A stretch of 64,000 bases of DNA from a bacterium. Lineage in GTDB: Bacteria; Sysuimicrobiota; Sysuimicrobiia; Sysuimicrobiales; Segetimicrobiaceae. The notes beneath the pieces were generated by a model that was not told where the DNA came from, ran no database searches, and worked only from the letters and a program-made list of their open reading frames with translations. Below, piece by piece: positions 1 through 3,386 of the stretch. A program made the translations under genes and the position numbers. Position 1 is the first letter of the stretch, and each line of letters starts with the position of its first letter. The DNA is taken from contig DASYZR010000143.1 in assembly GCA_035945995.1 (NCBI GenBank), positions 1 to 64,000 of the forward strand. Reading direction: 5' to 3'.

Positions 1-158
1 ATCGGCGCGACGACCTTCCCCCTCGATGAACGGCCGCTGGGGGAACCGGTTCGTCACGTTTGTCCGGCCGCCCTCCGCAGCGACAAGGCGCTGCATGGTC
101 AAATGCCCAATACATTAGGACCACGTGACCCGCCTGAAGACGAAGGGGGCAGGCTGTT
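1..158. other. Left edge, no assignable gene
   Basis: No gene can be assigned here. One forward frame runs in from the left edge and stops at about base 113, so it could be the 3' tail of a gene lying mostly outside the window, but the few dozen residues show no recognisable motif. A second forward frame stays open to base 285, but it overlaps the better supported gene starting at 159. Confidence 0.3.
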
Positions 159-713
159 ATGTTGGACCGGCAGACGGTTGAGCGGGTGGCCAGTTACTAT
201 CCGCCACAGGAGCAAGCGAAGGACGACATGGTTTTCTCCGAGGCCTTTCGAAAGCCGATCCGAGCGCGGCGGTACCTGGAGATGAAAGACCTGCTTCGCA
301 TCGCGGATTGGAAGTCGCCGCGACCGAAGCCGCTCCTCCGTAGCAACAGCGCCGAGTTACTGCAAACAGTCAGCCGGAAGGCGTTCGCCGAGCGCGATCC
401 AGAAGAGGCCATCCGGCACCTGGACCGACTGCGTGGCGTGTCGGTTCGCATGGCGAGCGCGATCTTGACGATCTACGAGCCGGATACATACACGACCCTG
501 GACCAGAATGCGTGGCGATCATTGGCGCGGCTGGGCTATGTCGACGACCCGGGAACGAATTTGGATGCTTTCCTCAGCAAGCCGGAGACGTACGCGCCTT
601 ATCTCGCGACGTGCCGGAACCTAGCGACCGATTGTCGCGTGTCGTTGAGGACCTTGGATAAGTGTCTGTGGGTGCTCCGAGGTCGGACTCCTGCGGAATT
701 CTTCGGCACGTGA
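159..713 (+). CDS. HhH DNA-glycosylase-like orphan protein (184 aa)
   Basis: I do not recognise a named family. Residues ~88-125 carry a helix-hairpin-helix-like core, 'LRGVSVRMASAIL', followed by a Pro/Asp-rich turn 'YEPDTYTTLDQNAWRSL'. The same layout occurs in HhH-GPD base-excision glycosylases and in small orphan proteins with an OGG-like fold found in phage and defence islands. The [4Fe-4S] cysteines of the Nth/MutY type are absent. A DNA-binding or DNA-repair role is an inference from the motif alone. The ATG at 159 follows a purine-rich stretch (gggggcagg). The next gene is a broken endonuclease-like gene on the same strand, which fits an accessory segment. Confidence 0.6.
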   Translation: MLDRQTVERVASYYPPQEQAKDDMVFSEAFRKPIRARRYLEMKDLLRIADWKSPRPKPLLRSNSAELLQTVSRKAFAERDPEEAIRHLDRLRGVSVRMASAILTIYEPDTYTTLDQNAWRSLARLGYVDDPGTNLDAFLSKPETYAPYLATCRNLATDCRVSLRTLDKCLWVLRGRTPAEFFGT

Positions 714-802
714 TCCATGCCCAACCAACAGGGCGCGGAGCGTCCCCCGTGGGGGCGACCGCCGCAGCGCCGAACGAGACCATTACGTTAGGGGGAGGGG
801 CC

Positions 803-1376
803 TTGACCATCATCAAGTTCCAACAGGAGTTGTTCAGGGCACTGATGCGGGCGCGCATTCCTCGCATTCCTCAGGGTATCAAGACCGAACAGTCCTTGGA
901 GCGCCAGTTTATTATCCCTCACGCCATCCGCATCGCGGCAGCGCAGGACGACATTCTGCTCTTCAGCCACCCCTGGGGCAACAGGCTACGCTGCACCGGC
1001 GGGTGCGCCGAGAATCCCGCCCGGCGGCCCGGGTCGGGAGGTCGGCTGTCCAGACTGCTGGGCGGCGAGCAAAGCGTGGGCGACGGTGGAGGCGTTCGGA
1101 ACGCGGCACACCTTCGACATGGTGGCGAGGGACCGTGCGGGTCGCACGCTCGCGGTCGAAATCAAGTTAGTCTCCGCCCGTGGCGGCCGGATGCCGAACG
1201 GCGACATTCAACGCTTCCTCGGCCAGGTGGCGCTCGCGGCGACTAAACACGATGCAGTCATTGGGGTGTGCGGGTACCACGGCAAACTCAACGCCAGGTG
1301 GCGTGACGACACTCCCGATGTGGAGAGGTGGCTCAGCGGGCGCAACGCGCAACTTGTGTTCCGCTACGTCGGATGA
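803..1376 (+). pseudogene. Frameshifted PD-(D/E)XK endonuclease-like gene
   Basis: Two overlapping forward frames appear to be halves of one gene. The first half starts at TTG 803 just after a gggggagggg Shine-Dalgarno-like run and reads to about base 1010 ('QSLERQFIIPHAIRIAAAQ', then 'DILLFSHPWGNRL'). The second half, in another frame, is coherent from about base 1030 to 1376 and includes 'GCPDCW', then 'FDMVARD' and 'LAVEIKLV'. The Asp...Glu-X-Lys pattern there is the PD-(D/E)XK nuclease signature. The join falls in a GC-rich stretch around 1000-1040 that makes poor protein in either frame. This is either a disrupted gene or an assembly indel. The second half alone could start at GTG 1086 (96 aa) and would keep the EXK motif. 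Confidence 0.5.
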
Positions 1377-1454
1377 ACTGAACGTGCGAGGAGGGCGTCT
1401 GAGAGACAGGAAGACGCGGCTGACGTACTCCCGGCCACTGCCAGGGACGGCACG

Positions 1455-2291
1455 TCAGGAGCCTGATTGGACGTCAAGCCTATTCTCTCGTTGGAGCCGA
1501 CGTATCAATTCTCTGAGCGTTAGCACCTCCATGTCACCCACCTGCGCGCGGCGAATCAATTCGCGTAGTCTCCCATCATGTGTTACAAAGACATCGGCGG
1601 GCGATGCCGAGGCTGCGTGGTGAAGGTCGCCGAAATGCGCTTCCTCCAGTTCGCGATTACCGAACATTCTTGCATGCGCGAGCACCAATGGTACTACGAC
1701 ACCCAGCCGGATCGGCTTGAGCGCAAGCAAACCGGCCCAGCCGCGCCGTTCACACTGGACGAGGACACCCGCACGCTCGGCCATGATTCGCAGCCACTCA
1801 ACAGCATGAGCGTTCATGAACTGCTTGAAAGTGAGGCGGCGCGGCATCGCGGCCCGCCATCTCTCCATAGCATGGGTCCAGCCGTCCGTCCACGCGGTTC
1901 GCTGCTGCTTGTAGGTAAGCACCGTTCGTAGAAGAGCGCCGTAGTCGCGCGGCGTTGGTGATGTCAGGCGCGCCAGGTCGAGGTTTGTGGCGTACGGGCT
2001 TGCCGCAGCACCAGTCCCACGCGCGTACGCTCGGAAGCAGTCGTTGAGAAGGGGCACAACGTGGTTGATGATATGCGCCCGATCCGTGAGCCCGACGATC
2101 CATCGAATCTCGTCGAGCGCCTGCTTCTTGTTGTCCATAAGTAGCACTTCCGAAACCGTGACAATGCTCAACGACAGCGATAGATGACCATGCTTGGTGG
2201 CCATGCGCAACGTGGCTTCATCTTGGTCCATGGCACCCCGGGTGCGATGGCGGAGATGACTCAGCACGTTCCTGTCGAGGTAGACGATCAT
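1455..2291 (-). CDS. PIN-domain ribonuclease-like protein (278 aa)
   Basis: The protein opens 'MIVYLDRNVLSHL', the first acidic motif of PIN nucleases (Asp6). Near the C-terminus it has 'DLHHAASASPADVFVTHDGRL', containing the later conserved acidic residues in the order typical of PIN domains, with 'SEVLL' supplying the intervening Glu. PIN proteins are Mg-dependent single-strand RNases; many are VapC-type toxins that cut tRNA or rRNA. At 278 aa this one is twice a typical VapC, with a helical insert of unknown role in the middle. The ATG at 2291 lies 20 bp past the CCA end of the tRNA-like gene, and no other promoter is evident, so the two are probably co-transcribed. No antitoxin-like gene is adjacent. 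The PIN family assignment is solid; a toxin or tRNA-processing role is an inference. Confidence 0.75.
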   Translation of the reverse strand: MIVYLDRNVLSHLRHRTRGAMDQDEATLRMATKHGHLSLSLSIVTVSEVLLMDNKKQALDEIRWIVGLTDRAHIINHVVPLLNDCFRAYARGTGAAASPYATNLDLARLTSPTPRDYGALLRTVLTYKQQRTAWTDGWTHAMERWRAAMPRRLTFKQFMNAHAVEWLRIMAERAGVLVQCERRGWAGLLALKPIRLGVVVPLVLAHARMFGNRELEEAHFGDLHHAASASPADVFVTHDGRLRELIRRAQVGDMEVLTLRELIRRLQRENRLDVQSGS

Positions 2292-2311
2292 GGTCCATGG
2301 TGCATCCCTGC

Positions 2312-2427
2312 TGGTCCGGCTGCCGGGAGTCGAACCCGGACGCTGTTTCCAGCAGCGGCTTGTACCGCGCTCCTCGCGAGATGACCGCGATACAAGCCGC
2401 CGCGTCTGCCAGTTCCGCCACAGCCGG
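2312..2427 (-). tRNA. Class II tRNA-like gene with enlarged anticodon arm
   Basis: The RNA has a perfect 7-bp acceptor stem (CCGGCTG/CAGCCGG), discriminator A, encoded CCA, a Leu-type D arm (GCG...CGC around GAACTGGCAGA), a variable arm GCTG-GAAA-CAGC and a canonical T arm (CCGGG-TTCGACT-CCCGG). It is 113 nt before CCA, about 28 nt longer than a class II tRNA. The excess is all in the anticodon arm: GCGGC and GCCGC close a 36-nt loop instead of 7. This helix extends to 10 bp (GCGGCTTGTA/TACAAGCCGC), and inside it lies a second hairpin, TCGCG-GTCATCT-CGCGA, with a 5-bp stem and a 7-nt loop that presents U33-CAU. No splice of the outer loop yields a Leu anticodon. It could be a tRNA carrying an intron-like insert, a decoy or substrate of the adjacent PIN nuclease, or a decayed tRNA. 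Isotype is unassigned. Confidence 0.75.
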
Positions 2428-2447
2428 AAGGCCGGAGAGTTGGGAGC

Positions 2448-2477
2448 ATTATCCTCACTCGCCATCGACCTCGTCAA
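2448..2477 (-). promoter_or_regulatory. Sigma-70-type promoter of the tRNA-like/PIN cassette
   Basis: On the minus strand TTGACG (2477-2472) and GATAAT (2453-2448) are separated by 18 bp, a close match to the housekeeping consensus. The -10 ends 20 bp before the 5' end of the tRNA-like gene, leaving a short leader for RNase P to remove. The promoter is in the right place to drive both the RNA and the PIN gene behind it. Confidence 0.6.
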
Positions 2478-2516
2478 GAGACGGTGGCTTGCCGCTGGTT
2501 CACCCGGGTGTTTACG

Positions 2517-3026
2517 TTAGCGCGGCCCGTCCCCGTTCCCGTCCGGCCCGACCGTCGGCATGTACGACAGCATGCGCCGCTCCGCCGCCGCGCGCTCGCT
2601 GGCAAGGTACTCCTCGCGCCGTTCCTGGAGCCACTGCCTGATCCCGTCCCGCAGTTCCGGCGGCATCTCCTTCAGCGCGGCGGCCGCCTCGGGGGCGAAC
2701 GGCCCGCTGGGCTCGTCCGGCGGCTCGATGACGACCGGCGCCCGACCCCAACCTCTCGCGGCGAGCCACTCACCGGCCAACATGCGGTCACGTAGGCTGA
2801 TACGGCGTCGCTCCCCGATGGACACGGCGTCTCCGGCGAACACGGCGCGGTAGAATCGGACGAGGTCCTCGCCGTCGCCGACAGCCTGCCTGACCAGCGC
2901 CGCCAAACCTCTTGGTCTCCCCCCGCCGTTTCTGCGCGCGTCGAAGCCAGCGAAGAATGGTCGGCCGATCGGCAGTTCGGTCGCAGTTTTGTGCGGTGCG
3001 CCGCCGTCACCGTTCCGCTCAGTCAT
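2517..3026 (-). CDS. Phage-type small protein, DUF5681-like N-terminus (169 aa)
   Basis: The protein carries an Asn/Gly/Arg-rich stretch 'RRNGGGRPRGLAALVRQ' near residue 35, like the short DNA-binding-like DUF5681 motif found in prophage proteins, then a helical segment with 'LRDRMLAGEWLAARGWG'. Small terminase-associated phage proteins show a similar layout. The ATG at 3026 has a strong Shine-Dalgarno sequence (GGAGGT) 4 nt upstream. No terminase, portal or integrase gene is visible, so this is a phage or island remnant rather than a prophage. Its exact function is unknown. Confidence 0.55.
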   Translation of the reverse strand: MTERNGDGGAPHKTATELPIGRPFFAGFDARRNGGGRPRGLAALVRQAVGDGEDLVRFYRAVFAGDAVSIGERRRISLRDRMLAGEWLAARGWGRAPVVIEPPDEPSGPFAPEAAAALKEMPPELRDGIRQWLQERREEYLASERAAAERRMLSYMPTVGPDGNGDGPR

Positions 3027-3310
3027 GCCGACCTCCGTCTACCGACAATCCCACGTCCATCATGAAGCCAGAAGGGTTGGCGGTCAACCAAACGGATGTA
3101 TGAGTACGGTGCGCGGCACCGACAGAATGCTTCAGTCGGTCGGGTACCTGTTCAGCCGGTCGTCGTCACTGGCGCATGGAGCACCCCGACGGAAAGCATC
3201 CCCCGAGGGGGACGGTCGCCGCCTAAGTTCGGCTGAATGTCGGCATCGGACCACCAAAGTGGGTAGCAGGAGGGTAGCAGATGAAAGCGGTCCTTCGCCA
3301 GCCCTTGATC

Positions 3311-3386
3311 TGGTGGGCCCTGAGGGACTCGAACCCCCGACGCCCGGGTTAAAAGCCCGGCGCTCTACCCGCTGAGCTAAGGGCCC
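3311..3386 (-). tRNA. tRNA-Lys (anticodon TTT)
   Basis: This is a standard 76-nt cloverleaf with encoded CCA. It has acceptor GGGCCCT/AGGGCCC, a D arm with AGCTCAGCGGGTAGAGC, anticodon stem CCGGG/CCCGG closing the loop CTTTTAA (anticodon TTT, Lys), T loop TTCGAGT and discriminator A. Its 3' end faces the accessory segment at 1-3310, as expected if this tRNA serves as an integration site. Confidence 0.97.

Follow-up and report, generated by a model that had tools for sequence, protein, structure and literature searches.

What kind of RNA has the complete body of a transfer RNA and carries a hairpin where its anticodon should be? The question is raised by a gene near the start of the window, that is, of the whole stretch of 64,000 nucleotides that was analysed. 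The initial annotation had described the RNA as having a doubled anticodon arm and had proposed that it could be an intron-bearing tRNA, an RNA with two anticodons or a decoy.

The tRNA-like RNA and its anticodon arm

Reading the sequence directly, we find that the RNA does occupy positions 2312-2427, on the minus strand. The intact acceptor, D, variable and T arms and the encoded CCA that had been reported are all present. The parts of the gene are as follows:

2427-2312, minus strand: tRNA-like RNA, 116 nt including the encoded CCA (5' end 2427, 3' end 2312)
2421..2427, minus strand: 5' strand of the acceptor stem, CCGGCUG, forming 7 bp with CAGCCGG at 2316-2322
2402..2418, minus strand: Leu-type D arm of 3 bp (GCGGAACUGGCAGACGC), from the sequence
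2355..2400, minus strand: extended anticodon arm, a predicted 46-nt hairpin with about 15 continuous bp and no exposed anticodon
2362..2393, minus strand: 32-nt hairpin, from folding, that replaces anticodon positions 34-36 and is flanked by U32-U33 and A37-A38
2342..2353, minus strand: class II variable arm, GCUG-GAAA-CAGC, from sequence and fold
2323..2339, minus strand: T arm of 5 bp, CCGGG-UUCGACU-CCCGG, from sequence and fold
2312..2322, minus strand: 3' strand of the acceptor stem, discriminator A73 and encoded CCA, from the sequence
2448..2477, minus strand: sigma-70-like promoter, TTGACG-18-GATAAT, with the -10 box ending 20 nt upstream of the RNA

Among the features of a decoding tRNA-Leu, we find the intact acceptor, D, T and variable arms together with A73, and D-arm motifs similar to this one occur in the ordinary tRNA-Leu genes of the host genome. 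A 7-nt loop with a Leu anticodon is absent, and so is recognition by tRNA finders: ARAGORN and Rfam at the gathering threshold (including RF00005) both missed the RNA, and a permissive Rfam scan gave weak partial matches only. The computed fold has an energy of -68.4 kcal/mol, compared with -51.1 +/- 3.8 kcal/mol in shuffled sequences (z -4.5; 0 of 200 shuffles). The promoter matches the consensus at 10 of 12 positions and has the distance from the RNA that would be expected; two sites were found against 0.2 expected, and none of 300 shuffles gave an equally good one. Judging from the sequence, the RNA is probably transcribed, processed at its ends like a tRNA and stable.

The 10-bp helix that had been noted in the anticodon arm is present (GCGGCUUGUA/UACAAGCCGC), as is the 36-nt outer loop, which lies beyond the 5-bp anticodon stem. 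A nested hairpin of 5 bp with the 7-nt loop GUCAUCU can be drawn on paper; all five of its pairs have a probability of 0.00, since the whole arm forms a single uninterrupted hairpin. In this fold U32-U33 pair with A38-A37 (U33 with A37) and the helix continues into the 32-nt hairpin, which also folds independently (z -3.2). When the energy of the whole RNA is calculated, the form with the nested hairpin reaches -54.1 kcal/mol and the continuous form -65.7 to -67.1 kcal/mol, a penalty of about 12 kcal/mol. The anticodon arm is thus predicted to be one long hairpin and not two nested anticodon arms; a doubled arm is not favoured. An RNA with two anticodons is likewise disfavoured, since the inner hairpin is excluded energetically and the other loci described below have apical loops that are not 7-nt anticodon loops. 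The RNA cannot decode, since its anticodon stem runs on into a hairpin that takes the place of the anticodon.

Another possibility is that the hairpin is a short intron, whose removal would give a working tRNA. Positions 32-33 and 37-38 are kept, and there is a sister class in phages and bacteria with hairpins whose removal restores the Leu anticodons UAA or CAA. For the RNA in the window, on the other hand, no 7-nt splice of the outer loop yields a Leu anticodon, as the initial annotation had correctly read from the sequence; the nearest products read Tyr, Val or Asp, and the other loci of its class yield no shared anticodon. It resembles tRNA-Leu with a group I intron, and archaeal or eukaryotic tRNAs with introns, in having extra sequence within the anticodon loop. 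It differs from them in that its insert of about 32 nt forms a continuous helix without a catalytic core or a bulge-helix-bulge, finds no group I match in Rfam and restores no anticodon, and the 29 surplus nt are far below the size of a group I intron. With no Leu anticodon to be restored, an intron is not favoured here and we regard it as quite improbable.

This copy is surplus, since the host genome, which measures 4.15 Mb and is rated 98.8% complete by the tool, contains the full normal Leu set: ordinary tRNA-Leu genes with UAA, UAG, CAG, CAA and GAG anticodons, that is, all five species.

Further loci with the same design

DNA searches with the RNA in its own genome, in relatives, phages and plasmids returned only the RNA itself or short matches to tRNA-Leu D arms, and no close relative that would show selection within the lineage was found in them. 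We scanned one genome per GTDB species, as well as viral contigs, for a pattern of a Leu D arm and a T arm 50-80 nt apart; in the genome collection exact motif matches only were accepted. Sorting the matches by structure left nine more independent loci of this design, all of them in metagenome bins, draft genomes or viral contigs:

Bacterial loci: L090 (Chloroflexi); L102, L179 and L186 (Acidobacteria); L126 (Polyangiaceae); L138 (Chlorobaculum)
Loci on viral contigs (phage or provirus): L264, L325 and L401

The weakest member is L264, where positions 32-33 and 37-38 do not form the UU/AA pairs. L102 is the one locus in which splicing could give a Leu anticodon (CAG or UAG). A covariance model (R1) built from the RNA in the window and L102 places all ten loci, yet ordinary tRNA-Leu genes score highly too, so that membership of the class rests on the inspected structures.

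The pairing of the arms was tested without a fitted alignment. In the ten loci, the 5' and 3' arms of the same locus form on average 10.0 of 12 pairs, compared with 6.0 for arms combined from different loci (permutation p < 5e-5). Since the first five pairs are common to any tRNA, the relevant figure for the extension is that of the four pairs just inside the insert, where 27 of 40 possible pairs are formed (p 0.003). Folded by itself, the insert does better than its shuffles (p <= 0.013) in seven of the nine loci tested, with L102 and L264 falling short. The sequences of arms and inserts are unrelated between loci, yet self-complementary. That this is not simple decay, as the initial annotation had argued, is supported by the nine further loci of shared architecture and by the covariation of their arms.

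The RNA could nevertheless be a tRNA-Leu in decay that has taken up a palindromic repeat: the copy is surplus to a complete Leu set, and insertion of a palindrome alone would make a hairpin. We consider this very unlikely, given that every other arm is perfect and the promoter kept, that neither the RNA nor the insert was found a second time in the genome, and that the design is repeated in the nine further loci, whose inserts are unrelated and some of which lie on transposons or in phage operons. The class is sporadic, since 396 Acidobacteriota genomes, searched by pattern and with the L179 PIN protein, contained no further copy.

Mobile-element settings and the neighbouring PIN genes

Around the RNA, the window contains the following features:

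3311..3386, minus strand: tRNA-Lys(UUU), a host gene (ARAGORN), with synteny to congeners ending just past its 3' end
1..3310: strain-specific island of low GC content (about 0.62 vs 0.70) that holds the RNA; its far end lies beyond the contig start
2517..3026, minus strand: ORF of 169 aa with unknown function, between tRNA-Lys and the RNA
1455..2291, minus strand: ORF P0001, 278 aa, codirectional with the RNA and starting 20 nt after it, PIN-like by motif only

In two congeners, the upstream sequence through tRNA-Lys is syntenic and similarity stops just beyond this tRNA, which places the RNA in a strain-specific island of lower GC content. The island is horizontally acquired. The 169-aa ORF has a 79% identical DNA match in the same genome (G000:C6:67-304) and a short match in G005.

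Several other tRNA-related sequences were seen in these genomes. In one congener, a sequence like the 3' half of a tRNA (GGTTCGATTCCGGAGCCTGCGCCA; L395, about 1390-1430, G002:C26) lies in the variable region that follows the same tRNA-Lys. In the host genome, a class II tRNA whose anticodon is UGC-like comes immediately after a tRNA-Sec (L073, G000:C24:4246-4442), and there are partial 3' halves of tRNA-Ala and tRNA-Pro that are possible integration remnants (L074 and L083, G000:C95 and C22).

The further loci lie in various kinds of mobile DNA. L179 and the viral contig L322 have in common a segment of 2.97 kb with 99.9% identity in different surroundings. It has inverted repeats of about 25 bp, and its target duplications are 8 bp long: CTACCTAG, where one side has an additional base, and CTACTTTG. 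It encodes an IS1595-family transposase, a 267-aa protein, a PIN protein and the RNA. We describe it as an IS1595-family transposon (L179:1-2190 and L322:7656-10623) with the PIN gene, the 267-aa protein and the tRNA-like RNA as passengers; when inverted-repeat transposon ends were searched among the loci, only this pair was positive. In L401 the RNA lies in a phage late operon, between the genes for head completion and the terminase small subunit. In L325 it lies upstream of an integrase gene near the end of a provirus, the Pfam match of the integrase being below the curated cut-off. Restriction-modification genes are found near L090 and L179.

tRNA genes are common integration sites, and the gene could therefore matter as DNA, as the target of an integrase. 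The position of L325 would suit this, and the island in the window sits at a tRNA gene. However, the junction of the island is at tRNA-Lys and not at the RNA, the RNA is inside the transposon in L179/L322, and searches for a direct repeat of the RNA were negative in the window (where the contig ends inside the island), in the L325 contig or in the L179/L186/L322 regions. We hold an attachment site for highly improbable. tRNA-dependent lysogeny (PMC10865867) was considered too and does not fit an RNA that is unable to decode.

A gene for a PIN or PIN-like protein is the next 3' gene in three of the ten loci: L179 (PF01850), L186 (DUF4411) and the window (by motif only). The first two are supported by Pfam and end 10 nt from the RNA; furthermore, L102 has a PIN_12 gene two genes away. 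P0001 has the acidic pattern of D6 near the N-terminus and a GDLHHAA...FVTHD stretch near the C-terminus. It matched nothing in Pfam, NCBIfam, PADLOC or the PDB, a PIN profile included, and its single-sequence AlphaFold model is uninformative (pLDDT 38). Its one homologue, in the same family, is a C-terminal fragment beside a tRNA-Ser in a related genome; a search of 43 genomes of the phylum and of GTDB contigs, plasmids, phages and viral contigs gave no other. As the next 3' gene of ordinary tRNA-Leu controls, a PIN gene was seen in none of 12 cases (Fisher p about 0.08), and the link across loci is suggestive.

VapC-type PIN toxins cut tRNAs. The RNA could accordingly be the partner of the adjacent nuclease, either as a mimic that binds and restrains the enzyme or as its target, in an RNA antitoxin or addiction module. 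The short distances, 20 nt in the window and 10 nt in L179 and L186, speak for this, as does the transposon in which the L179 RNA and PIN gene travel together. On the other side, P0001 is PIN-like by motif only and has no detectable homology to the L179 PIN protein, the gene orientations differ, and the DUF4411 gene of L186 already has a possible protein partner in its neighbour, an M78-family peptidase gene. In a type III-like system the RNA gene would be linked to a nuclease gene in most members, compared with 3 of 10 here. Since this count against 0 of 12 is merely suggestive and at least two phage-borne copies (L401 and L325) are without a PIN neighbour, we keep the PIN link as a rival and not as the main reading, and think it rather unlikely.

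A probable non-decoding mimic and its relation to known tRNA-like RNAs

Because the same design is found in phages, in a transposon and in other mobile DNA, the RNA is probably a real non-decoding RNA and not a broken tRNA. The explanation that we prefer, with slightly less than even confidence, is a non-decoding tRNA mimic carried by mobile elements, for which we infer a function that is probably that of a decoy or of a stable RNA scaffold. The RNA would be transcribed, have its ends trimmed as in a tRNA and be retained as a stable mimic. It might benefit the mobile element by occupying factors that bind tRNA: the charging enzyme, EF-Tu or a tRNA-cutting nuclease, of which a neighbouring PIN enzyme would be an example. 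Alternatively, the tRNA body may be a stable scaffold that presents the hairpin. The decoy proposed by the initial annotation is possible and close to our best guess. Little should be made of a Leu specificity: the Leu bias of the set stems from the search pattern, which demanded a Leu-type D arm, and class I analogues exist.

The RNA is like bacterial class II tRNA-Leu in its acceptor, D-arm motif, variable arm, T arm, A73 and CCA. It differs by the hairpin in place of the anticodon and 7-nt loop, by its length of 116 nt and by a C1-G72 pair, where the Leu tRNAs of the host have G1-C72. With tmRNA it shares a tRNA-like body without an anticodon; it has no alanine-type D domain, no pseudoknot array and no room for a tag reading frame, and neither a tmRNA match in Rfam nor a tRNA-Ala-like end with a tag segment was found. 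The tRNA-Other of Bacillus cereus, a pseudo-tRNA regulator, is also a tRNA-shaped RNA outside translation; to our knowledge no extended anticodon hairpin has been reported for it. In engineered tRNA scaffolds a hairpin is grafted on the anticodon stem of an intact tRNA body; these are man-made, whereas the present RNA is natural.

A wider and more tentative idea, which we find possible but on balance doubtful, is that the RNA in the window, as a member on a chromosomal island, belongs to a broad and so far undescribed group of natural tRNA-scaffold RNAs on mobile elements and in phages. Their tRNA bodies would be intact and processed as tRNAs are, with a hairpin or pseudoknot payload in place of the anticodon arm, and in conflicts with the host they would serve as decoys or presenters. 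In open-licence papers, whose silence is weak evidence of novelty, we found no description of the hairpin-capped tRNA-like design. Many defence systems and toxins cut tRNAs. If the idea is true, annotation pipelines overlook or misname stable, non-decoding, tRNA-shaped RNAs on mobile elements, the engineered tRNA scaffold has a natural counterpart, and RNA decoys in conflicts over tRNA gain a candidate that can be tested.

The scans brought up further groups of tRNA-like genes. Short hairpins in the anticodon loop of tRNA-Leu genes, giving UAA or CAA on removal, occur on viral contigs (L309, L324, L326, L344, L361, L364, L371, L376 and L378) and in bacteria (L104, L106, L119 and L172), and resemble very short introns, for whose removal we know of no machinery in bacteria. 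A Leu D arm, T arm and acceptor are found in viral or prophage RNAs (L107, L177, L196, L202, L203, L208, L263, L365 and at least about 100 others) whose middles often fit an H-type pseudoknot instead of anticodon and variable arms. A strict pseudoknot pattern is present in 19 of 108 among the matches listed, compared with 4.4 in shuffles (maximum 7). A class I (non-Leu) pattern gave over 120 viral matches; 92 of 122 keep acceptor and T stems, and 26 the anticodon stem as well. Such class I RNAs with enlarged middles are common in viral contigs (L405-L519), with long extended hairpins in L455, L473 and L425. Finally, eleven mostly Gammaproteobacterial tRNAs (L099, L101, L114, L118, L131, L133, L152, L156, L162, L163 and L165) have a Leu-type D arm and a long variable arm together with apparent Ser, Ala or Gly anticodons (GGA, GGC, CGC, CCC), and are reminiscent of allo-tRNAs.
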